The translations under genes and the position numbers were made by a program. Of a DNA stretch of 20,965 bases, positions 2,099 to 14,547 are shown piece after piece. Numbering within the stretch: the stretch's first letter is position 1; every line of letters begins with the position of its first letter. The notes below the pieces were generated by a model. That model was not told the DNA's origin, did no database searches, and worked only from the letters and a program-made list of their open reading frames with translations. The stretch comes from Planctomycetaceae bacterium. GTDB lineage: Bacteria; Planctomycetota; Planctomycetia; Planctomycetales; Planctomycetaceae. Where the stretch lies: contig DLVV01000305.1 in assembly GCA_003445035.1 (NCBI GenBank), positions 1 to 20,965 on the forward strand, read 5' to 3'.

Positions 2099-4000
2099 TC
2101 ACTCGGGCACGGCGACCTCGCGGTAGTCCCGCTCGAGCAGCAACTTCTCGGTCCGCTTCCGGTCCAGGCCCTCGCCCGGTACCAGGACCGTTCGCCGTGC
2201 CAGGTCGGGATCGAGCCTCTCCGACCCCGACGCCCATTCCTTCCTCAGTCTCAGCCAGACCGTCTCACGCCCGGATCGCGGCCCCACGAAATCGAAGGCC
2301 AGTTCGCTGCGAGTGGGATCGCTTTTGAGGGCCTGCCACGCCAGCCAGCGGTTGACCGAGTAGGCATCGTCGAGTTGTTCGGCCAGGTGCGGCACCAGCC
2401 AGTCGGTGCCGGAGGCTTTGCGAGCGGGCGGCCAGCCAGCGTGCCAGATCGACACGGCCCGCTGCACCGGATCACCCTGCAGCAACAGCAGTACCCACGA
2501 GGCCACCGTCTGCTCCTCCTCGACCAGTTCGGCCGGCTCGTGCCCGTACCACTCGACCATCCGCTCGGACGTCCAGCCAGCCGACCGATCCAGGTGGCAC
2601 AGGTTGCAGGCGTTGGGGCGGCCGCCTCCCCGGATCGAAACGACTTTCGGACTGTCCACCCGGTGACTGCGAATCGCCCCAAGCAGTGCGTACGACGTGT
2701 GGGGCATGTGACAGTTGTAACAACGGCTGCCGGACGACCCGGCGGAGTGGTGAGTGTGCTGGGTCAACCGGCTGCCGGTGAACCCGGTGTGACACTGCAG
2801 GCAGGCCCGGTCACCCCGCATTCCGCTGATCAACTGGTCGTCGGCCGGCGCATCGTGCATCGAGTGACACGACAGGCAGGACATCTTGCCCACGGTGTGA
2901 CATTTCGAGTCCACGTGCCCAAGGTACTCGCGGCCGCCGACCCAGCACGCTCCATCTGTCCAGTAGACCGGCTTGCCCATCTGCTCCATGCGGGTGTGCA
3001 GCGGACTGTCGGCAAGCACCGTTTCGAAAGCCGTCGACAAATCCTCTCCGGGCTGATAGCGGTAACCGTTGGCCAGGTAGTCCTCCTGGTCGGGCGAGAG
3101 GAAGGTGCTGTGACACTGGCCACAGACCCGCGAGGCTCCCCGGTGATCCAGCCTGGCGGGATTCACGATGGTGGGGTCCGCAGAACCCACCGGCGGCTTT
3201 GCCACGGCCGAACCGCCCACACGGGACGACTCCGCGTGGCGGGCCACGTGCTTTCGCCCTGCCCCATGACACGCCTCACAACTGATCCCCAACTCGGCCG
3301 CCTCGGTCCGCACTTCCAGTGTTCGCCTGTTCATCCCGGGTCGGCCACCGGTGCTGTGACACGTCAGGCAGTTGTCGTTCCAGGTGATGAAGTGCCGAGG
3401 AGATCTCGGTGGCTCGAGAAATGCGTCCTCGCGCGGCATCCACCGCTCCTCGCCAATATGGAAGTACCAGGGAATCTGCCGCAGCAGGTTGCCGCGAGCA
3501 CCGGGAATCCAGTAGCCCTGGACATGATGCGACCCGGTGGTCATCACCACGGGACGAGTCACCCGGTGCAGTTCGGATTCGCCGTCGATCGCCGATGACT
3601 CACGGCCGTCCTCGATCTGGACCGATTCCCAGTCGGGATCGACCAGGTTCACCTCGAAACGATCCCCCGTCCGGGTCAACTCGTAACGACGCCCCCGCGA
3701 CTCCAGCCTCACGCCATCGAAGGGAGCCAGCACCGTTTGAGGCGTGGCTTGCTGAGTCATCGTGCGATGGAAGGTCGCGTGCCAGCTGTCGTGCTGCTGC
3801 CGGTGACACTCCTGGCAGGCCGACGAACCGACGAAATCTCCGCGGGGTCCGAGTTGCGGTAGAGGATCGTCGGCCGGAGCGGGCACGATCTTTCTCTGCG
3901 AATCCAGGTACCAGCTGCGCCAGACCAGGCCGACAACGACCAGCCCGACCAGGGCCGCGACCGATCCCAGGAACAACTTGCCTCGACCAGCCACCAGCAC
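2099..4000 (-). CDS. Octaheme c-type cytochrome with C-terminal HEAT-like region
   Basis: This 633-residue protein has an N-terminal membrane anchor or uncleaved signal (residues 9-27) and eight CXXCH sites: CQECH (62-66), CLTCH (211-215), CEACH (241-245), CGQCH (293-297), CLSCH (375-379), CLQCH (400-404), CYNCH (427-431) and CNLCH (465-469). The uneven spacing, with a lone first heme and then a cluster, resembles the cytochrome c554-like multiheme group. Residues from about 475 to 600 form the same helical repeat tail as the paralogue at 1-1607. The start is a GTG at 4000 with AGGAG only two bases upstream. A GTG two codons later has a better eight-base spacing and may be the real start. The gene is divergent from the DUF1549 gene at 4186. 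The role in electron transfer is inferred from the hemes; the substrate is unknown. Confidence 0.9.
   Translation of the reverse strand: MLVAGRGKLFLGSVAALVGLVVVGLVWRSWYLDSQRKIVPAPADDPLPQLGPRGDFVGSSACQECHRQQHDSWHATFHRTMTQQATPQTVLAPFDGVRLESRGRRYELTRTGDRFEVNLVDPDWESVQIEDGRESSAIDGESELHRVTRPVVMTTGSHHVQGYWIPGARGNLLRQIPWYFHIGEERWMPREDAFLEPPRSPRHFITWNDNCLTCHSTGGRPGMNRRTLEVRTEAAELGISCEACHGAGRKHVARHAESSRVGGSAVAKPPVGSADPTIVNPARLDHRGASRVCGQCHSTFLSPDQEDYLANGYRYQPGEDLSTAFETVLADSPLHTRMEQMGKPVYWTDGACWVGGREYLGHVDSKCHTVGKMSCLSCHSMHDAPADDQLISGMRGDRACLQCHTGFTGSRLTQHTHHSAGSSGSRCYNCHMPHTSYALLGAIRSHRVDSPKVVSIRGGGRPNACNLCHLDRSAGWTSERMVEWYGHEPAELVEEEQTVASWVLLLLQGDPVQRAVSIWHAGWPPARKASGTDWLVPHLAEQLDDAYSVNRWLAWQALKSDPTRSELAFDFVGPRSGRETVWLRLRKEWASGSERLDPDLARRTVLVPGEGLDRKRTEKLLLERDYREVAVPE
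2747..2821 (-). repeat. Inverted repeat copy 2 (shared by the two cytochrome genes)
   Basis: This is the partner of 894-968 within the octaheme cytochrome gene. The two differences are single third-position C/T changes near the two ends of the block. Confidence 0.9.
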
Positions 4001-4185: not shown

Positions 4186-6969
4186 GTGACAGGTTTCCGG
4201 CCCATCGCCGCGGCAATCCTCGGTCTCGCCGTGACCACCGGCCACACGGCCCCGCCGGACCTGCCTCCGGCGGTCAAGCGGCAGATCAACTTCGACCGGG
4301 ACGTCCGGCCGATCTTCGTGAAACACTGCTTCTCCTGTCACGGACCCAAGCGGCAGGAAAGCGACTACCGGCTCGATCGTGCCCGGGTCGCCGTCTCCGG
4401 CGGTGACCTCCAACAGAAACCCATTCGCCCCGGCAACGGGGCTGCCAGCCCCCTGCTTCGCTACGTCGCCGGACTCGATCCCGATACCAGGATGCCGCCC
4501 AAGGGCCCGCGACTGGACCGGAAACAGCTGGCCGTGCTGCGAGCCTGGATCGACCAGGGGGCCCGGTTTCCACGCTCGGCCGGCGACTCGATGACAAGAA
4601 CCTCGCACTGGTCGTTCCAACCCCTGGATCGGCCGACCCCGCCGAAAATCCGCGGCGGTGGCAACCCGATCGACGCCTTCGTCGGCCGTCGGCTGGCCAA
4701 AGCGAAGCTCGATTTTTCGCCACGGGCCGATCGTCGCACGCTCGCCCGTCGCCTGCACCTGGCCATGCTCGGCCTGCCACCGTCTCCGGAAACCGTCGAC
4801 GCCTTCATCGCCGACCTTCACCCCGCCGCATGGGAACGCCTGGTTGACGGCGTGCTGGCCCATCCACACTACGGCGAACGCTGGACGCGGCACTGGCTCG
4901 ACGTCGTCCGCTTCGCCGAATCGCACGGATTCGAAACCAACCGCGAACGGACCAATGCCTGGTACTACCGAGACTGGTGTGTCGAGGCGCTGAACGCCGA
5001 CATGCCCTACGACCGGTTTGTCGTGTCCCAACTGGCCGGGGATGCGATCGGCGAGAGTGCCGGCACGGGTTTCCTGGTCGCCGGCCCCTACGACCTGGTC
5101 AAGAGTCCCGACGTCTCTCTGACACTGGCCCAGCGTCAGGATGAACTGGCCGACATGGTCAACACCACCGGTACCGCCGTGCTGGGACTCACGCTGGGAT
5201 GTGCACGATGTCATAATCACAAATTCGATCCGATCCCCCAAACCGACTACTACGCGCTGACGGCCGTCTTTGCCGGGGTCCGACACGCCGACCGACCGCT
5301 GGACCGCCCGACCCCCCAGGCCCAGCTCGCCGTCCTCCGCAAACAACTCGCAGGTCACCGTCGGCAGCTCGCCGAACTCATCACCAAGCTCAGGCTCCCG
5401 GTCAACGCGAAGCACAACATCGAGAAATTCGCCCCCACCAGGGCCCGCTTCGTCCGCTTCACGATCCGCAACACCAACAGCAGCGAACCGTGCCTGGACG
5501 AACTGGAGATCTACACTGCGGCGAGTCCGGGCCGTCCCGCCCGCAACGTGGCGCTGGCCACCAACGGAACCAAGCCCACCTCCTCGGGCAACTTCGGTCC
5601 GCACCCGTTCCACAAGCTCGCTCACATCAACGACGGAAAGCACGGCAACAGCCACAGCTGGATCTCGAACCAGTCGGGCCGTGGCTGGGTGCAACTGGAA
5701 TTCCCCGAGACGGTCGTGATCGATCGGATCGAGTGGGGTCGCGACCGTCAGCAGAAGTTCAGCGACCGGCTGCCGACCCGGTACTGGATCGAAGTGGCCG
5801 AGAAGGCCGGAGAGTGGCACGAGGTGGCCGGGATCGCCGACCGTGCCCCCTTCGGATCCTCAAACACCGCTCCGGCCGACCGGTTGGCTCGCAGTGATCT
5901 CAGCCGGGAAGCCGCCCTGGCTCGTGGACTCCAGGGGCAGATCGGCGAGCTGACCACACGACTCAATGGACTCGCCAAGGGTCCCACCGCCTACGTCGGC
6001 CGGTTCGACCCGCCCCCGGCCACGCATCGACTCTACCGCGGCGACCCCCAGGCTCCCCGAGAGGCCATCGCCCCGGGGGGGCTGACCATTCTTGCCCCTC
6101 CACCGATGGCCATGAACGAACCCGAACAGGCCCGGCGACTGAAACTCGCCCGCTGGCTGGTCCGCCCCGACAACCCGCTCACCCCGAGGGTGATCGTCAA
6201 CCGGTTGTGGCACTACCACTTCGGGACCGGACTGGTGTCCACTCCGGGTGACCTCGGGGCCAACGGCAGTCTCCCCTCGCACCCCGAACTGCTCGACTGG
6301 ATGGCCGGCAGGATGGCCGGAACCGGCTGGTCGCTGAAATCGCTGCACCGCCTGATCCTCACCTCGCGGACCTGGTGCCAGTCCAGCCGTCCCCGTGCCG
6401 ACGCGACAGCCCTGGATGCGGGAACACGGCTGTTGTGGAGATTCCCGCCCAGACGCCTGGCGGCCGAGGCGATCCGCGACAGCATGCTGTCGGCCAGTGG
6501 CGCCATCGACCGCCGCATGGGCGGACCGGGGTTCAAGGTCTTCGAAATCGTGATGGAAAACGTCCGGCACTACTCCCCCAAGAAGACCTACACCGTCAAC
6601 GAGTGGCGGCGGATGGTCTACATGACCAAGATCCGACAGGAGCAGGATGAGGTGTTCGGAGCGTTCGACTGCCCCGACGGCAACCAGGTGATCGCCCGCC
6701 GCAGCCGATCCACCACGCCGCTGCAGGCCCTGGGACTGCTCAACGGCAACTTCGTCCTACAACAGTCCCGGATGCTGGCTCGCCGGTGCGTAACCGACAC
6801 GCCCGGAGGCAGCACCGGCGATCGCGTCGCCCGAGCCATCCGCCTGGCATTCGGTCGCCCGCCCACACCTTCCGAAATCGACGCCGGCACCCGGCTCGTC
6901 GACCGCCACGGCCTGGCCGCGCTGGCCCGTGCCCTGCTCAATTCCAACGAGTTCCTCTGGCTGCCCTGA
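4186..6969 (+). CDS. Planctomycete PSCyt1-DUF1549-discoidin-DUF1553 protein
   Basis: This 927-residue exported protein has a short N-terminal signal (about 1-22). A PSCyt1 cytochrome segment (about 33-130) carries the heme site CFSCH (48-52). A DUF1549/PSCyt2 domain (about 155-365) contains GLTLGCARCHNHKFDPI, with a second CXXCH at 339-343. A discoidin (F5/8 type C)-like insert covers about 420-550 (LDELEIYTA, GRGWVQLEFPETVVIDRIEW). A DUF1553 domain follows, from about 650 to 920 (NRLWHYHFGTGLV, SHPELLDWMA). Start is GTG 4186 with AGGA ten bases upstream; no ATG fits. The next gene, 30 bases on, encodes DUF1501, the usual partner of this family. The family is typical of planctomycetes, and its biochemical role is not settled. 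The discoidin insert suggests glycan binding (inference). Confidence 0.92.
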   Translation: MTGFRPIAAAILGLAVTTGHTAPPDLPPAVKRQINFDRDVRPIFVKHCFSCHGPKRQESDYRLDRARVAVSGGDLQQKPIRPGNGAASPLLRYVAGLDPDTRMPPKGPRLDRKQLAVLRAWIDQGARFPRSAGDSMTRTSHWSFQPLDRPTPPKIRGGGNPIDAFVGRRLAKAKLDFSPRADRRTLARRLHLAMLGLPPSPETVDAFIADLHPAAWERLVDGVLAHPHYGERWTRHWLDVVRFAESHGFETNRERTNAWYYRDWCVEALNADMPYDRFVVSQLAGDAIGESAGTGFLVAGPYDLVKSPDVSLTLAQRQDELADMVNTTGTAVLGLTLGCARCHNHKFDPIPQTDYYALTAVFAGVRHADRPLDRPTPQAQLAVLRKQLAGHRRQLAELITKLRLPVNAKHNIEKFAPTRARFVRFTIRNTNSSEPCLDELEIYTAASPGRPARNVALATNGTKPTSSGNFGPHPFHKLAHINDGKHGNSHSWISNQSGRGWVQLEFPETVVIDRIEWGRDRQQKFSDRLPTRYWIEVAEKAGEWHEVAGIADRAPFGSSNTAPADRLARSDLSREAALARGLQGQIGELTTRLNGLAKGPTAYVGRFDPPPATHRLYRGDPQAPREAIAPGGLTILAPPPMAMNEPEQARRLKLARWLVRPDNPLTPRVIVNRLWHYHFGTGLVSTPGDLGANGSLPSHPELLDWMAGRMAGTGWSLKSLHRLILTSRTWCQSSRPRADATALDAGTRLLWRFPPRRLAAEAIRDSMLSASGAIDRRMGGPGFKVFEIVMENVRHYSPKKTYTVNEWRRMVYMTKIRQEQDEVFGAFDCPDGNQVIARRSRSTTPLQALGLLNGNFVLQQSRMLARRCVTDTPGGSTGDRVARAIRLAFGRPPTPSEIDAGTRLVDRHGLAALARALLNSNEFLWLP

Positions 6970-6999
6970 CTCCCACTCGCCCCGTGAAACCCCTGCCTC

Positions 7000-8454
7000 A
7001 TGTCACCACGCACTTCACTGGACCGACGCCGGTTCCTGGGAGATTCGGCCACCCTGCTCGGGTCCACCGCCCTGGCAACCCTGCTGGACCAGGACGGGGT
7101 GCTGGCCGACGCACCGATCCGGCCGGCCATCAACCCCTCCAGTCCCCACGCTTCACGGTCGGCCCACTTTCGGCCACGCGCTCGCCAGGTGGTGATGATC
7201 TTCTGCAGCGGAGGCTTCAGCCCGCTGGATTCTTTCGACTACAAGCCCGAACTGATCCGCCGCCACGGAGAACCACTGCCGGGCAAGAAGCTGATCACCT
7301 TCCAGGGCGAGCAGGGACGGCTGACACGGCCGCTGTACCCGTTCCGTCCGCGTGGCGAAAGCGGCAAGATGGTCTCGACGCTGGTCGACCACCTCGGAGA
7401 ACTCGCCGACGAGATGTGCTTCGTGCACTCGGTGACCACCAAGACCAACACGCACGGTCCGGCCGAAAACGTGATGTCCACCGGCTTCACGCTCGACGGG
7501 TTCCCCAGCATCGGTGCCTGGGTCAGCTACGCCCTGGGCAGCGAAGCGGATGACCTGCCCGCCTTCGTGGCAATCCCCGACCCCCGGGGCAAGCCTCAGT
7601 CCAGCGTCAACAACTGGGGACCGGGCTTCCTGCCAGCGGCCTTCCAGGGCACCGATTTCAACGCCGCACGACCCATCCGCAACCTGGCCCGGCCGACTTC
7701 GATCACCCCGGCTGCCGACACCGCCACCCGCCGTTTTCTCGATGCCCTCAACCGGAAACACCTCGATCGTTTCCCCGGCGACTCCGAACTGGCCGCCCGA
7801 ATCGCCAGTTACCAGCTCGCGGCACGCATGCAGCTGTCGGTCCCCGAGATCACCGACCTCTCGACCGAATCCCGTTCGACGATCCGACTCTACGGTGCCG
7901 ACTCCCGAAATCCCCTGAAAGCCGGCTTCGCCCGTAACTGTCTGCTGGCACGCAGACTGGTCGAACGAGGTGTTCGCTTCATCCAGCTCTTCAACGGCAG
8001 CTACCAGACCGGCGGAGAGGGGACCAGCAACTGGGACGGCCACAAGAAACTCAAGGTGCAGTACGACGTCCACGGCCCGATTCTCGATCAGCCCGCCGCC
8101 GGGCTGCTGGCCGATCTCAAGCAACGCGGGCTGCTCGAGGAGACCCTGGTCGTCTTCTGCAGCGAATTCGGTCGCATGCCCACGTTCCAGAAGGGGGCCA
8201 GTGGGCGAGACCACAATCCCGACGGATTCACCGTCTGGATGGCCGGGGCAGGTGTCAAAGCTCCATTTTCCTACGGTGCCACCGACCCGTTCGGACACCG
8301 AGCGGTCGAACCCCCCGCCAGTGTTCATGATGTCCATGCCACCATCCTGCACCTGGCTGGACTCGAGCACCGCCGTCTCAGCATCTACCACAACGGAATC
8401 CAGAGACGGTTGACCGACGTCCACGGCGACGTGATCACCGACGTGCTCGCCTAG
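7000..8454 (+). CDS. DUF1501 family protein, Tat-exported (first copy)
   Basis: This is a 484-residue protein. The N-terminus has a twin-arginine signal, DRRRFLG (8-14), followed by a hydrophobic stretch, so export in folded form is expected. Family hallmarks are [13 protein letters not shown] near residue 70 and CSEFGRMP near residue 387, followed by [18 protein letters not shown]1501 proteins belong to the alkaline-phosphatase/sulfatase-like superfamily. The Asp and His residues in these motifs are consistent with metal binding, but an enzymatic activity is not proven for the family. It starts 30 bases after the DUF1549/DUF1553 gene and is very likely co-transcribed with it. No Shine-Dalgarno sequence is visible. 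A second DUF1501 gene lies at 9145-10470 and is clearly divergent in sequence, so this is not a recent duplication. Confidence 0.92.
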
Positions 8455-9144: not shown

Positions 9145-10470
9145 CTACGTCAACTCGTGGATCGGCCGTCCACCGCCGACGATGCTCACCGGCCGACCGC
9201 TGGCATCCTCGTTGTGGGTTCCCAGCGAGATGCCCATCGCGTGGTAGATCGTGGCCAGCACATCCAGTGGCGTGCTTGGCCGTTCCTGGACACCGCCACC
9301 GTGACGTTCGCTGGCTCCAACGACTCGCCCCCCAACGATCCCGCCGCCGGCCAGCATCACCGTGAAGCAGTTCGACCAGTGGTCGCGGCCGGCGTGACCG
9401 TTGATCAACGGCGTCCGGCCAAACTCGCCGGCACAGTAGACCAGGGTGTTTTCGAGCATCCCCCGCTGGTCGAGATCCTCCAGCAGCGTGGCCATGGCAG
9501 CATCCAGCGGAGGCAGGTGCTGTTCGAGGTTCTGGTGGACTTCGTTGTGATGGTCCCAGTACCCGGTGTTGACCGTGACCACCCTCGCGCCGGCCTCGAC
9601 CAACCGTCGGGCCAGCAGGGCGCTCTGCCCGTACTGGTGACGACCGTATCGTTCCCGCAGGGCAGCGGGTTCGGAGTCGATTTCGAACGCCTTGCGGACC
9701 TCCTCACCGGTGACCATCTCGAGTGCCTTGGCCTTGAAGGCGTCCAGGCCGTCCATCACTCCTGTGCGGTCGATGTCGCGGCGAAGGGAATCGAAGCGGA
9801 CCAGCAAATCGCGGCGTTTGCGCACATTGCTGAGGTCCAGCCCGCCCGGCAACGCCAGGTTGGGGACCTTGAAGTCCTTGCTGTTCGGATCGGCTCCGAC
9901 CTCGAACGGATCGTAGGACGCCCCCAGGTAAACCGACTTCTGGTACCCGAACGCCTCGGCCTTGGGGACCGCGATGTAGGCGGGCATGTGGGGCGAGCGT
10001 GAACCGAGGGCCTTGTTGATGACCGAACCGAACGAGGGATGCTGCGCGGCGATCCGGGCCAGCGTCGGTCCGAAATATCCCGTCTGCATCCAGTGCGCCG
10101 ACGGAGCGTGGATACCGTTCTCGTGGTACACGCTGCGGACCTGGGCGATCTTGTCCATCACCTTGGCTTGCCTGGCAAATCGCTCGCCGACGATCGTTCC
10201 GGGCACGTTGGTCTTGATCGGGCGGTACGGACCACGGTACTCGGCCGGAGAATCCGGCTTCATGTCGTAGGTGTCCTGCTGGCTCATGCCGCCATGAGTC
10301 CAGAAGACGATCAGCGACCGTCCCTTGTCGCGGGTCGCGTCGGCGGCGACCGCTTCCCGCTCCAGAAGACTCGAAAGCCCCAGCCCCAGCAGTGGGGCCC
10401 CGACTTGCAGGAAGTTGCGTCGGGAAATGCCGTCACAGTTTCGGTAGGTGCGTCCGGGCACGGTCAACAT
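9145..10470 (-). CDS. DUF1501 family protein, Tat-exported (second copy)
   Basis: This is a 441-residue protein. Start ATG 10470 is chosen because AGGAG lies seven bases upstream (10478-10482) and the protein then opens with a short leader and twin-arginine signal SRRNFL followed by a hydrophobic run. An open frame continues 41 codons upstream but reads as low-complexity sequence. Hallmarks of the alkaline-phosphatase-like DUF1501 family are FWTHGGMSQQDTYDMKP near the N-terminus and GEFGRTPLINGHAGRDHWSN near residue 360. It follows the DUF1549/DUF1553 gene at 10551-12830 with an 80-base gap, the usual pairing of these families. The biochemical activity is not established for the family. The convergent neighbour is the cold-shock gene. 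Confidence 0.93.
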   Translation of the reverse strand: MLTVPGRTYRNCDGISRRNFLQVGAPLLGLGLSSLLEREAVAADATRDKGRSLIVFWTHGGMSQQDTYDMKPDSPAEYRGPYRPIKTNVPGTIVGERFARQAKVMDKIAQVRSVYHENGIHAPSAHWMQTGYFGPTLARIAAQHPSFGSVINKALGSRSPHMPAYIAVPKAEAFGYQKSVYLGASYDPFEVGADPNSKDFKVPNLALPGGLDLSNVRKRRDLLVRFDSLRRDIDRTGVMDGLDAFKAKALEMVTGEEVRKAFEIDSEPAALRERYGRHQYGQSALLARRLVEAGARVVTVNTGYWDHHNEVHQNLEQHLPPLDAAMATLLEDLDQRGMLENTLVYCAGEFGRTPLINGHAGRDHWSNCFTVMLAGGGIVGGRVVGASERHGGGVQERPSTPLDVLATIYHAMGISLGTHNEDASGRPVSIVGGGRPIHELT

Positions 10471-10477
10471 CGTTGGA

Positions 10478-10482
10478 CTCCT
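10478..10482 (-). promoter_or_regulatory. Ribosome binding site that fixes the start of the second DUF1501 gene
   Basis: The reverse strand reads AGGAG seven bases before ATG 10470. It supports this start over the longer open frame that begins at 10593. Confidence 0.75.
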
Positions 10483-10550
10483 GCAACCCCCACCCGCGGC
10501 GACGGGCGGCGATGGTCTGCTTCTATTCCTAGTGTTCGAAACGAACGGGG

Positions 10551-12830
10551 CTAGTGGATGAACAAAAACTCGTTGGTCGCCAGCAATGCCCACATCAGCG
10601 ACTGGTAGGCCGCCTTGCGATCCGACTCCGACTCCAGGTACTCCAGCGCGGTGCGGGATTCCTCGTCACGAGGCCGGCGAGAAAAGATACGGACAAACAG
10701 TTCCTGCACGTTCTCGGAATGCGTTTTCTTGTTGGCAGCCAGGCGGGTGACAAAACCACTCTTGTCGGCCAACTTCCTCTGGATCTCACTGGAACTGACC
10801 AGTTCCAGGGCCTGGGCCAGCGCCGGGTCATCGGTACGCTCGCATTCGCAGGCACTTCTCCGGTCGGGACGCCCGAACACGTCCAGGAAATGCACCGAGA
10901 CGTTCTCGTCGGGCAACTCGATGGCGCGGGTCCCAGACGGGAACTTGCCACCGCGGTCGCCGGGGAAGACGGTCGGCACGTCCAGCACCTGGCTGAAGGC
11001 GTCCAGCAACACCTCGGCCTTCAGCCGCCTGGGATAGAACCGGGCGTAAGACTGGGTATCGAGACGGTTGGAGTCGTTCGGTTGGCTGCTGGTCCGATAG
11101 GCCCGGCTGCCGGCGATGCGGCCGACCAGGTGCTTCAGGTCGAACCCACTGGCGATGAAGTCGCGGGTCAGCCATTCCAGCAATTCGGGATTCGACGGCG
11201 GATTGCTGCTTCGCGAGTCATCGATCGGATGCACCAGGCCCCGACCCAGGAAATGGCCCCACATGCGATTGACCATCGTTCGGGCAAAAAACGGATTGTC
11301 ACGACGGGCCAGCCAGCGGGCAAACCGCTGCCGGGGATCGTCGAAAGGTGACAAGGACAGGTCCGGACCGCCCAGTGGCCTCGGAGGAATCACTCGACCA
11401 GTACGAGGATGACGCACCTGGCCGGAGGACCGGACGTAAATTCGTTCGTTGGTCGGCACCTCCGCGTCGGCAAACCCACCACGACGCCCCACCCGGGCAA
11501 ACACCGCCGCCAACCCGTAGTAGTCGGCCTGGCTCCAGGGTTCAAACGGGTGGTGATGGCACTGGGCACACTGGATCCGCACTCCCAGGAACGCCTGCGC
11601 CACGCTTTCGACGTAATCGACCGAGGTCCGCACCTGCCGGTACCAGACCGTCGGTGGATTCTCGCGCTGGCTGCCGGTGGCCGTGAGAATCTCGGCCACG
11701 AACTGATCGTAGGGCTTGTTGGTCGCCAGGGAGTCACGGATCCATCCGGCGAACAAGGCCGTCCCCGGCCGCTGCTTGCTGGTCGAATACCCCTTGCCAC
11801 GGTTCCTGAGAATGTCGGCCCACTTCATCGCGAAGTACGCCGCGTATTCAGGCCGGTCCAACAGCCGGTTGATCAGCCGTGTTCGTCGGCCCGGACGACG
11901 ATCGGCTTCGAAGGCTCGCACCTCCGCAACCGTCGGCAATGTCCCGCAGATGTCCAGCGACAGCCGCCGGATCAATGTTGCGTCATCGACCTCTCCGGAC
12001 GGCCGGATCCCCAGCCGCGCCCAGCCCTCGACCAGGAAACGGTCGACCGGCGAAGCGTCTTTCGGCAGGGCCACCGGCTCGGTCGCCTTGCCGAAGGGCA
12101 CCGTGCCCTGGTAGACGGCCATCTTCCCACCGTAGCGGGCCAGCACCGCGAACAGCCCACCACGCTCGCCGGTTGTCACCGAGCCGGACCCGCCAACTCC
12201 GCCGATTTCCGGCTCGTTGGACAGGTACAACGCCTGGTGAGTCACGTCGCGGTGGGTGCCGTTGGAGAATCTCGCCGAGAGCTTCAGCTGTTCAGTCGAG
12301 TTGACCGGCAACACGCCCCGGGTCGGAGTCATCGTCAGTTCAACCAGCACCGGATCGTCGTCCCGTGGCGGAGCGGCCCCCTGCCGGATCCAGTCGGCCA
12401 GGACCCGGTAGTCGGGAGAACCGATTCCCAGGCGGCGGCCCCCACCGTGAGGCACTCGCCCGATGGCCTTCTGCAGCAGCAGGCTGCTGTCGGGATCACC
12501 GGCAAAAACGCGGCGACCACGTGCCTCCTTGACCAGCGACTCGTGATCGAACGCCGGAACGAACCCCAGCAAAGACAGCTTGAACCCGTTCTGGCCAGTC
12601 GACTTGCCGTGACAACCGCCGCTGTTGCAACCCAGCTTGGTCAGGATCGGCACCACGTCGGCGGCGAATGCGATTCGAGCGGGGGCATCGCCGGCACGAA
12701 CCTCCGACGAACCGAACAGCACCACGGCCAACACCGTGACGACCGTCGTAGCCGAAACCACGCGAACGACGGCCCCGTACGACTCGCGTCGTGGCTTTGC
12801 GGAGCCATATTGTCTGCAGTTGACGTCCAT
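10551..12830 (-). CDS. DUF1549/DUF1553 protein with CX4CH heme-like site and Ig-like domain
   Basis: This 759-residue exported protein has a positively charged N-terminus and a hydrophobic signal (about 20-46). Residues 68-74 (CNSGGCH) form a CX4CH site characteristic of this subfamily. A beta-rich, Big_2-like Ig domain (about 160-245, with FSNGTHRDVT) follows. DUF1549 (about 258-450) includes IQCAQCHHHPFEPWSQADYY, with CXXCH at 421-425. DUF1553 covers about 495-755 (RTMVNRMWGHFLGRGLVHPI, and a C-terminal ATNEFLFIH). The domain order differs from the other copy at 4186-6969, which has PSCyt1 and a discoidin insert instead. ATG 12830 has no clear ribosome site, and internal GTG codons near residue 22 are alternatives. 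It sits between the selenoprotein gene (66 bases upstream) and DUF1501 (80 bases downstream). The exact biochemical role is unknown. Confidence 0.92.
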   Translation of the reverse strand: MDVNCRQYGSAKPRRESYGAVVRVVSATTVVTVLAVVLFGSSEVRAGDAPARIAFAADVVPILTKLGCNSGGCHGKSTGQNGFKLSLLGFVPAFDHESLVKEARGRRVFAGDPDSSLLLQKAIGRVPHGGGRRLGIGSPDYRVLADWIRQGAAPPRDDDPVLVELTMTPTRGVLPVNSTEQLKLSARFSNGTHRDVTHQALYLSNEPEIGGVGGSGSVTTGERGGLFAVLARYGGKMAVYQGTVPFGKATEPVALPKDASPVDRFLVEGWARLGIRPSGEVDDATLIRRLSLDICGTLPTVAEVRAFEADRRPGRRTRLINRLLDRPEYAAYFAMKWADILRNRGKGYSTSKQRPGTALFAGWIRDSLATNKPYDQFVAEILTATGSQRENPPTVWYRQVRTSVDYVESVAQAFLGVRIQCAQCHHHPFEPWSQADYYGLAAVFARVGRRGGFADAEVPTNERIYVRSSGQVRHPRTGRVIPPRPLGGPDLSLSPFDDPRQRFARWLARRDNPFFARTMVNRMWGHFLGRGLVHPIDDSRSSNPPSNPELLEWLTRDFIASGFDLKHLVGRIAGSRAYRTSSQPNDSNRLDTQSYARFYPRRLKAEVLLDAFSQVLDVPTVFPGDRGGKFPSGTRAIELPDENVSVHFLDVFGRPDRRSACECERTDDPALAQALELVSSSEIQRKLADKSGFVTRLAANKKTHSENVQELFVRIFSRRPRDEESRTALEYLESESDRKAAYQSLMWALLATNEFLFIH

Positions 12831-12896: not shown

Positions 12897-14534
12897 TTAT
12901 CGGCTGCGGGCCAGGATCGACGTGGCGGTGACGGGTCCCGATTCGGTGGGTGAGTGCTTCACCACGATCCGATCCCCGGGTTGCAGATCCGACAATCGGG
13001 CCGCCTGGCGGTTGCGTTCGATCCGGGTCTTGTCGTCGATCCGAACCGATTGCGTCCCACCTCCCCTTTTCTCGACCGTCAACTGGCCCCGCTTGGCATC
13101 GATACTGGCCACTCGTCCAAAGGCTGCCGTCGCCGGCCCCTGCGGCGATTCGGGCCGACCGCCAAATCCGCGCGGGCGTCCCCTGAAATCTCCGGGACGT
13201 CCCCCGAACCCGCCGGGACGACCGCGGAAACCACCGGGACGACCACCAAAACCGCCCGGCCGACCACCGAAATCGGGACGTCTGCCGAACCCGGGACGAC
13301 CGGCCAGATCACCTCGACCACCTCCCGGACGCTGCCCGCCACGGCGGGACCTGGTTCGCCCACCGTCACGATCACCCTTCAATTGCACCGTGTAGGTCTG
13401 GGTCACGGGTCGGCACCAGCCTTCCTTGTCGTTGCAGGCGAAGTACTTGACCACCAGTTTCAGCGGCTCACGCGAGTCGCCCAGTTCGACTGTCGCCAGG
13501 AACTCGCGGGGATCGACATCGGCCGGCTCTTTCACCTCCGGACCCGTCCACTCGCCCGGCTTGACCCGCCCGTCGAGACCCGGTTTCTCACCGGAACTCT
13601 CAACAAAACGTACGCGGATCGGTTCCACCAGGTTGTTCCAATGAACGTGGTACAACGGATCCAGCATGAAGCGAATGTGGAGTTGTCCCTTGCCCTCCGA
13701 GAGCAGGGCGGAATCGGCCTCGGCACGCAACTTGGCGTAAAACGGCGTGGCGTCCGAGCCCTTCTCGATCAACGGCTCGATCACCAGCGGACGCATGTCG
13801 CCGGGCAACTCGATCCGCTTGACCACTCCACGAGCCGCGGCCCTGGGCGGAGCCTCCTGGACGAGTTCCAGGTCAGCCGGATCGGTGGGATTCTCGACCT
13901 TGCCAACCAGTTCCTCCAGATCCGCTCGCAATGCTGCCGGATCACTCCAGGCTCGCTTTCTGACCAACCGCCCCTTGCCGTCAACCACGAACTCGCTGTT
14001 GGGCGCGTTGCCCAGTGCGTGCTTGATCGGGTTGTCGATGGCATCACAGATCCAGGTGAACCCCGATCCCAGCGTCCTGCGGGCCTCCTTCACGTGAGCC
14101 AAGCGTTCCTTGAGCGTGTACGGCCGGACGTAACCGTTGTGCTCCGGATGAGCCAGTGCCTTGTAGACGTAATAAAACCGAACGCCACGGGATTCGTAGT
14201 CGACACGGACGGCCTCCAGACCGGAGACACTTCTCAGGAAAGGCGGTCAGGTCAGGCAGCCGAAGACCAGGACCTTGTAGTCGCCCTTCAGCGCCCTCAG
14301 GCTCAACGGCTTCCCGTCGGCTGTGAAACCGGAAACGTCCGGCAACGGCTCTCCGAGCTGGGGCGAGGCCGAGTCGAATCGGCGAACCATCCGCTCTCGT
14401 GCCGACTCGCCGCCCTGGCGAGACTCGCCCGGTTTCCGCGTCGGCCTCGACCGATCGTCGCGCCGCGAATCCTGTGCCAGGGCCCCTGCAGAGCTCAGCA
14501 GGCCAACCAACACGACCACGAGAAACTGTTTCAT
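12897..14534 (-). CDS. Deiodinase-like redoxin selenoprotein with in-frame UGA (Sec96) and extended C-terminus
   Basis: Read through one in-frame TGA (14247-14249), the gene encodes 545 residues. Residues 1-21 are a signal peptide (cleavage near ALA-Q). A charged linker precedes a thioredoxin-fold domain (about 58-212): LGEPLPDVSGF, then VLVFGCLT-Sec96-PPF, YYVYKALAHPEHNGY, TLKERL, and SEFVVDGKGRLVRK. This follows the iodothyronine deiodinase pattern (FGSCT-U-PPF, a downstream AHP-DG motif, LEDRL). Cys93 and Sec96 make a CXXU pair. Next come a DsbD-N-like region (about 230-390, with CNDKEGWC at 367-374), RPGGFGG-type repeats (413-459) and a DUF5666-like tail (470-543). ATG 14534 has GGGAG eight bases upstream. 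The frame is open before and after the TGA. A periplasmic redox role is inferred; the substrate is unknown. A nonsense mutation or sequencing error is the alternative. Confidence 0.85.
13158..13298 (-). repeat. Tandem 21-base coding repeat (RPGGFGG heptads)
   Basis: Five in-register heptads (RPGGFGG, RPGGFRG, RPGGFGG, RPGDFRG, RPRGFGG) occupy 13158-13262, preceded by two six-residue units at 13263-13298. The DNA repeats with a 21-base period but is imperfect. The encoded segment is a flexible Arg/Gly/Phe-rich linker. Confidence 0.85.
14219..14249 (-). promoter_or_regulatory. Candidate bacterial SECIS hairpin
   Basis: Directly at the UGA, GACCG (14248-14244) can pair with CGGUC (14223-14219). 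Inside this, GAGA (14235-14232) pairs with UCUC (14227-14224) around an AGUG loop. The loop starts 15 bases after the UGA and has G at its second position, close to what is known for bacterial SECIS elements. An eight-base bulge on the 5' side makes the lower stem uncertain. An alternative lower stem uses CC/GG next to a U-C mismatch. Confidence 0.5.
14247..14249 (-). other. In-frame UGA, predicted selenocysteine codon
   Basis: This is codon 96 of the redoxin gene. It falls at the active-site position held by selenocysteine in deiodinases and by cysteine in ordinary redoxins. Only one base change separates it from a Cys codon. Confidence 0.8.
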
Positions 14535-14542
14535 TACCCGAA

Positions 14543-14547
14543 CTCCC
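14543..14547 (-). promoter_or_regulatory. Ribosome binding site of the selenoprotein gene
   Basis: The reverse strand reads GGGAG eight bases before ATG 14534. It supports translation starting ahead of the signal peptide, upstream of the UGA. Confidence 0.65.

Follow-up and report, generated by a model that had tools for sequence, protein, structure and literature searches.

A predicted exported selenoprotein with deiodinase-like and DsbD-alpha-like domains encoded by a planctomycete contig

Does an in-frame UGA codon in a deiodinase-like gene of a Planctomycetaceae bacterium encode selenocysteine (Sec), and what might the resulting protein do? The gene lies in a stretch of 20,965 nucleotides (contig DLVV01000305.1 of assembly GCA_003445035.1), referred to below as the window. 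It appears there as two minus-strand open reading frames (ORFs) in one frame, the first running from an ATG at 14534 to a TGA at 14247 (95 aa) and the second from a TTG at 14102 to a TAA at 12897 (401 aa). An earlier note, made from the sequence alone, had proposed that the two are halves of one selenoprotein gene. This proposal is supported by the reading frame, the pairing of UGA with Cys in relatives, a hairpin resembling a selenocysteine insertion sequence (SECIS), the Sec machinery of the genome, the redoxin fold and a set of conserved residues. The locus most probably encodes a single exported selenoprotein in which a deiodinase/peroxiredoxin-type domain is joined to a DsbD-alpha-like domain.

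The in-frame UGA codon and its probable reading as selenocysteine

The 144 bases between the two ORFs contain no stop in frame, so that the TGA at 14247-14249 is the only one before the TAA at 12897, just as the earlier note had stated. Translation through this codon gives 545 residues with U at position 96 within FGCLT-U-PPF, and the three family-like segments reported previously (AHPEHNGY, TLKERL and FVVDGKGR) are all found in the product. From a start that resembles a signal peptide, the read-through protein continues with a redoxin domain and a middle domain, then a linker rich in Gly and Arg, and last a DUF5666 domain. The signal peptide and ribosome site that had been placed upstream of the UGA correspond to the signal-peptide-like MKQFLVVVLVGLLSSAGALA and to a putative ribosome-binding site, GGGAG, 8 nt before the ATG. 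The structure model has low confidence for residues 1-41 (predicted local distance difference test score, pLDDT, below 50), and the selenoprotein is probably exported, judging from its first residues.

Scanning of genome contigs with the read-through protein yielded 22 loci, no two of them in the same genome. Their titles place 18 in Planctomycetota or groups within it, three in Acidobacteria/Acidobacteriota and one in Verrucomicrobiales; the earlier description of a planctomycete gene fits most of them, but the family reaches further. The codon for residue 96 was TGA in 21 of the 22 loci. The frame spanning both ORFs and the gap was kept in 21 other loci with no further in-frame stop (in one of the loci, L029, the contig starts inside the gene). 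Identity to the window protein ranged from 92 to 40% among the 20 TGA loci of our first alignment (A1). Locus L027 was omitted from A1 and from the tree owing to N bases and retained in a second alignment (A2), while L046, a Cys form with a broken frame, was left out of all three. When the window gene was compared with its nearest relative, the ratio of nonsynonymous to synonymous substitution rates (dN/dS) was 0.145 for residues 51-95, 0.034 for residues 97-212 and 0.317 for residues 213-395, and was therefore below 1 on both flanks of the TGA. In L046, a Verrucomicrobiales record, TGC replaces TGA (around position 461), a frame break follows immediately and the hairpin sequence is still there; this state may reflect either a recent change from Sec to Cys or an assembly error.

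We then turned to protein databases. A search with the whole protein gave at least 847 relatives among the 7988 candidates that shared most words and were scored. Among the best 120 of these, five covered the UGA and 115 started past it, their first residues aligning beyond residue 96 of the query. Standard annotation misses the gene: gene callers end the protein at the UGA, which leaves the family almost hidden in databases. A second search with residues 45-215 gave 224 relatives, of which the best 120 were examined. The pooled lists comprised 194 proteins, 162 starting past the UGA and 32 covering it, and in these 32 residue 96 was Cys in 31, Ser in one and Trp in none, while Cys93 was present in all 32. 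The alignment of homologues at position 96 that the earlier note had looked to sets an in-frame UGA in 21 of 22 loci opposite Cys in 31 of 32 listed relatives, as one would expect of Sec and Cys in a family of selenoproteins. The best maximum-likelihood (ML) tree implied four changes between Sec and Cys/Ser within the family, only two of them forced by well-supported branches; many inner branches are weak, and more than one loss or gain of Sec is probable.

A hairpin immediately downstream of the UGA was compared with the bacterial SECIS model as given in the available text of PMC13188914 (loop of 3-9 nt, stem of 4-16 bp, G within the first two loop bases, spacing of 16-37 nt, minimum free energy of -7.5 kcal/mol or lower). 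With a 5-nt loop (GGUCU), 6 bp, a spacing of 24 nt and a minimum free energy of -8.4 (19 nt) or -9.3 kcal/mol (29 nt), the window hairpin lies within every constraint of that model. Local folding produced this hairpin or a close variant in 22 of 22 rows. With identical rows counted once (21 of 22), 88.4% of cells pair at the hairpin, versus 33-60% when its position is slid. Synonymous constraint over 21 aligned genes is stronger evidence for a SECIS than covariation: codon 103 is GTC and codon 107 is GAG in all 21, codons 104 and 105 are free of synonymous differences, and among the 309 windows of seven codons residues 102-108 have the least synonymous variation. On the same 29 nt, five of the 22 rows are weaker than -7.5 kcal/mol (-6.7 to -7.3). 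Covariation by itself is weak evidence: over the 21 rows one CG pair becomes GC in three and one UA becomes UG in seven, four pairs are invariant and one C-A mismatch occurs in 11, and among 500 shuffles 37 reach the score and 400 have at least as many pairs altered on both sides. In addition, when the 66 nt from the UGA are folded alone, this hairpin is not chosen and the fold is modestly better than that of shuffles (z -1.64); it is comparison across relatives that singles it out. An Rfam scan of the window found no known SECIS or other RNA family at gathering score; a snoRNA match at E<=10 (18.2 of 60 bits) was set aside as chance-like.

The window genome (467 contigs, 97.0% complete) carries selB (337.8 bits over both pieces) and selA (488.5 bits) adjacent on contig C11 and selD (346.3 bits) on contig C436, all above cut-off. 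In 14 control genomes selB, selA and selD exceeded cut-off in two, one and two cases, respectively, with weaker matches in many; elongation factors give below-cut-off matches to the selB profile in most controls. Among the 22 relatives' genomes, selB was above cut-off in 21, and the remaining one (G158) has a partial match of 195.6 bits where a contig ends. Of the machinery named in the earlier note, tRNA-Sec alone was not recovered whole. None of 11 Rfam matches in the window genome (G000) was above cut-off, the eight examined being Ser, Leu and Gly tRNAs by ARAGORN, and no tRNA-Sec was found beside selAB or selD on contigs C11 and C436. A whole tRNA-Sec was above cut-off in three of four relatives' genomes, and the nearest relative has a tRNA-SeC (TCA); window-genome contig C353 breaks off where it matches base 17 of that gene. 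This cut match is most simply explained by a contig gap, not by loss.

The selD gene of the window genome (L019, G000:C436:42-962) has its own in-frame TGA, in SCAG-U-AGK. SelD is listed with a UxxK site in the available text of PMC13188914; selD is therefore likely to be a selenoprotein gene itself, which would give this genome at least one further Sec gene. In a Phycisphaerales genome (L044, 2234-5365) the family gene lies after selA on the same strand, and a 642-aa ORF ahead of selA, where the selB match of that genome would fall by coordinates, is a probable selB.

An open frame with TGA as a residue does not alone prove Sec, and the codon might be reassigned, for instance to Trp, or simply read through. 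Such a reading is very improbable given the Cys, Ser and absent Trp at this site in the listed relatives, the constrained SECIS-like hairpin and the Sec machinery of the genome. That the TGA stems from a nonsense mutation, or from an error of sequencing, in an ordinary Cys protein is in effect refuted by its conservation at the same codon in different genomes, and the earlier argument against a decaying pseudogene gains from the purifying selection on both flanks and the absence of any other in-frame stop in the 21 TGA loci, even if L046 shows that Cys forms and broken frames exist.

The redoxin domain and the DsbD-alpha-like domain

The earlier note had recognized a deiodinase-like pattern. 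Structure comparison of the redoxin domain with VIA-align gave mouse DIO2 (9h48) as the best match and DIO3 (4tr3) as the next, and the domain combines the deiodinase fold with a Sec-Pro-Pro-Phe type active site. All 21 members gave a match to the T4_deiodinase profile (PF00837) at E<=1, the best at 1.4e-9; the window protein itself scored 16.2 bits, below the 27-bit cut-off. The NCBIfam profile NF038285 (deiodinase family protein) matched all 21 at E<=0.01 (best 5.5e-30), the window protein reaching 50.6 bits on a partial match versus a curated cut-off of 250.

Of 149 Planctomycetota genomes searched with NF038285, 56 had matches at E<=1e-10, and 47 (the window's included) had a match with exactly one in-frame TGA; some (G150, G062) had four or five such matches. 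Twenty loci were examined (L066-L085): the TGA stands in FG-x-x-T-TGA-x-PF in 19, and L066 has Cys. The motif is mostly FGSYT-TGA-PPF, and a GC-rich hairpin was seen by eye after the TGA in L067 and L069. Sixteen of these loci fitting FGS[YC]T-[stop/C]-x-PF entered the tree (L066, L070, L073 and L076 were left out). In the ML tree, built from 68 redoxin domains (21 with Sec, 31 with Cys/Ser and these 16), the window family and the 16 loci separate at 100/100 support. Deiodinase-shaped genes with an active-site UGA thus fall into at least two clades in planctomycetes, and genes with one in-frame active-site TGA look widespread in the phylum. The window family itself is rare in this sample: at E<=1e-20 the same 149 genomes gave the window's own genome and two distant matches, L063 and L064, both rejected since the pattern FGC-x-x-[stop/C/S/U/T]-P is absent from them.

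Unlike animal deiodinases, the window protein has two domains and is probably exported; it shares with them the thioredoxin fold, the Sec site and the Thr before Sec; Thr95, Tyr124 and His129 are invariant in the 21 members and align with the deiodinase Thr, Tyr and His. A proposed deiodinase relay names Thr, Tyr, His and Glu, the Glu160 of DIO2 standing two residues before His162 (available text of PMC11592359). At the relay Glu position the family has Leu127 in 21 of 21 members, versus Glu in 16 of 16 FGS[YC]T rows. At position 180 it has Ser in 21 of 21, versus an Arg in all 16 rows that is also found in animal deiodinases, and its loop past AHP is shorter. The 16 rows further carry Ser at position 93. 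The window family shares its fold family and Sec site, but not these residues, with the NF038285 genes; fold family and Sec site are likewise shared with bacterial deiodinase-like selenoproteins, as far as the available texts describe these (PMC1088965, PMC2398784). The cysteine also differs in position, Cys93 lying three residues before Sec (CxxU), whereas the Cys of deiodinase 1 lies two before it (Cys124-Sec126 in the source text available). In comparison with the thiol-disulfide oxidoreductases ResA/TlpA, Phe99 occupies the place of the second Cys of CxxC, and the partner Cys precedes the Sec. The designation deiodinase-like holds for this domain; identity as a deiodinase is not supported by the PF00837 score or by the relay Glu position.

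The earlier note overlooked a second domain behind the redoxin. Over residues 213-395, the DsbD N-terminal profile (DsbD_N, PF11412) matched all but one of the 21 members at E<=0.1, with 5.9e-6 as the best value. A separate model of this domain had a mean pLDDT of 88.9, and Foldseek ranked DsbD N-terminal domains first to seventh (E 0.004-0.008). Each of the 21 Sec members has both Cys367 and Cys374, as do all 31 listed database relatives aligned over residue 96 and the Cys pair. The domain appears to resemble that of DsbD in being a beta-sandwich, and has two invariant Cys near its end, by the C-terminal strands; it differs from DsbD in that it follows a Sec redoxin in the same protein, in which no membrane part was seen. 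The assignment is weakened by a window-domain score of 18.2 bits on PF11412 versus a cut-off of 25, by Foldseek TM-scores near 0.3 by query with no match at E<=0.001, and by VIA-align, which did not separate the domain from other beta-sandwiches. On the profile and model evidence together, a DsbD-alpha-like identity is probable. Glutaminyl cyclase, suggested for the middle domain by a sequence search of solved structures, was rejected, the weak matches (E 0.3) being taken as chance.

A proposed electron route and competing functions

From these features we infer a direction of electron flow, a partner and a class of substrate. SelB acting on the hairpin just past the UGA would bring Sec-tRNA to residue 96, and the mature protein would join a Cys93-x-x-Sec96 thioredoxin domain to a DsbD-alpha-like domain with Cys367/Cys374. 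Outside the cytoplasm, the Sec96 selenolate would reduce an electrophilic substrate, which could be a peroxide, an oxidised thiol or a halogenated compound. Cys93 may trap the oxidised selenium as a selenenylsulfide, in the role of Cys124 of deiodinase 1, and the Cys367/Cys374 pair, a candidate built-in reductant, would then reduce it. A membrane carrier of CcdA/DsbD type would recharge this pair; the single DsbD_TM (CcdA-type) locus of the window genome (56 bits versus a cut-off of 27.1) is a possible source. We put this relay forward tentatively, at somewhat less than even chances for the scheme as a whole.

The DsbD-alpha-like domain may instead be an output, the Sec domain handing electrons or oxidation via Cys367/Cys374 to other exported proteins as in the gamma-to-alpha step of DsbD. 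Such a step, between an alpha and a thioredoxin-fold domain, is seen in the structure 1vrs, where the N- and C-terminal domains of DsbD are bound to each other. The site, however, is of peroxiredoxin/deiodinase type with Phe at the second Cys of ResA and seems better suited to substrate attack than to disulfide relay, and we consider an output role unlikely.

A true dehalogenase, stripping iodine or bromine from aromatics as animal deiodinases do, is less likely still. The DIO2 and DIO3 matches and the invariant residues aligned with the relay proposed in the available text of PMC11592359 would agree with it, and some record titles suggest water-column samples (DeepCast_65m, Offshore_80m). Against it stand the Leu and Ser in place of the relay Glu and the Arg, the shorter loop, and the statement in the available text of PMC1088965 that thyroid hormone is not expected in bacteria.

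Gene layout, earlier descriptions and significance

The features of the locus are collected in Table 1. DUF5666 (PF18914) was detected at E<=1 in two of 21 members, so most of the family is without it. Other members differ in their additions: EF-hand profiles match five of 21 (L037, L038, L041, L042 and L045), with EF-hand-like repeats seen by eye in their N-terminal extensions and, in L042 and L045, at the C-terminus too, and a Cys form named acetyl esterase/lipase in its source (P0020) has the redoxin and DsbD-like parts followed by an alpha/beta hydrolase.

Table 1. Positions of the selenoprotein gene and its parts in the window
Feature	Position	Strand	Basis or remark
Complete selenoprotein coding sequence (545 aa, predicted Sec at residue 96; TAA 12897-12899)	12897..14534	-	single frame also in 21 other loci
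Putative ribosome-binding site GGGAG, 8 nt upstream of ATG	14543..14547	-	read from sequence
Signal-peptide-like start, residues 1-20, MKQFLVVVLVGLLSSAGALA	14475..14534	-	judged by eye
Deiodinase/peroxiredoxin-type thioredoxin-fold domain, residues 57-212	13899..14366	-	
Cys93, three residues ahead of Sec (CxxU)	14256..14258	-	21/21 Sec members; 32/32 site-covering Cys/Ser database relatives
UGA codon, predicted to be read as selenocysteine 96	14247..14249	-	TGA in 21/22 relatives; database relatives Cys 31/32, Ser 1/32
Candidate bacterial SECIS hairpin GUCUCC-GGUCU-GGAGGC, loop beginning 24 nt past UGA	14212..14228	-	within four constraints of the model in the available text of PMC13188914
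DsbD N-terminal (DsbD-alpha-like) domain, residues 277-381	13392..13706	-	PF11412 profile and Foldseek
Invariant Cys367 and Cys374 (C-x6-C) of DsbD-alpha-like domain	13413..13436	-	21/21 Sec members; 31/31 database relatives
Gly/Arg/Pro-rich low-confidence linker, residues 398-467	13134..13343	-	length differs between relatives
C-terminal DUF5666 domain, residues 473-540	12915..13118	-	PF18914, E 3.9e-8

Neighbouring genes were examined in 11 of the 22 loci (20 ORFs). L026, L027, L028 and the window share MBOAT on one flank and PSCyt2/PSD1 on the opposite one; the remaining eight of the 11 loci have different neighbours, and the neighbourhood was dropped as a clue to the substrate. Elsewhere in the window, positions 4186-8454 and 9145-12830 hold two PSCyt2/PSD1 and DUF1501 gene pairs, a combination known in planctomycetes. 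The multihaem cytochrome genes at 3-1607 and 2099-4000, similar to each other, on opposite strands and with common stretches such as GSRCYNCHMPHTSYAL, look like an inverted duplication.

Marine surveys of 2005 and 2008 report deiodinase-like Sec proteins, in their available text without domain detail (PMC1088965, PMC2398784), and fragments of the window family may be among those sequences. Reviews of 2022 and 2026, as far as available, list a deiodinase-like protein as PF00837 with UxxC, and the table of 2008 gives no motif (PMC2398784). The 2026 inventory of 119 prokaryotic families or subfamilies includes one rhodanese/DsbD fusion, and its Table 1 has no row for CxxU-PPF with DsbD-alpha (available text of PMC13188914). 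A 2016 planctomycete genome paper discusses selenoproteins, its main text not mentioning a deiodinase. A literature search by title and start of abstract, with subscription papers and supplements outside it, found no description of the two-domain selenoprotein. The suggestion of an undescribed planctomycete architecture thus stands as regards the inventory and this search, but deiodinase-like Sec proteins as such are known and the family is not confined to planctomycetes.

We tentatively suggest that these proteins form an undescribed subfamily, possibly a selenoenzyme that works outside the cytoplasm, has a reductase domain of its own and acts on peroxides or halogenated compounds, with electrons passing from a membrane CcdA/DsbD-type carrier through the fused DsbD-alpha module to the Sec active site. 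The family bears on the role of bacterial deiodinase-like selenoproteins and on how extracytoplasmic Sec enzymes stay reduced; the fused Cys pair points to a likely reductant. If true, the fusion would supply within a single envelope protein what deiodinases and peroxiredoxins need separate reductants for.
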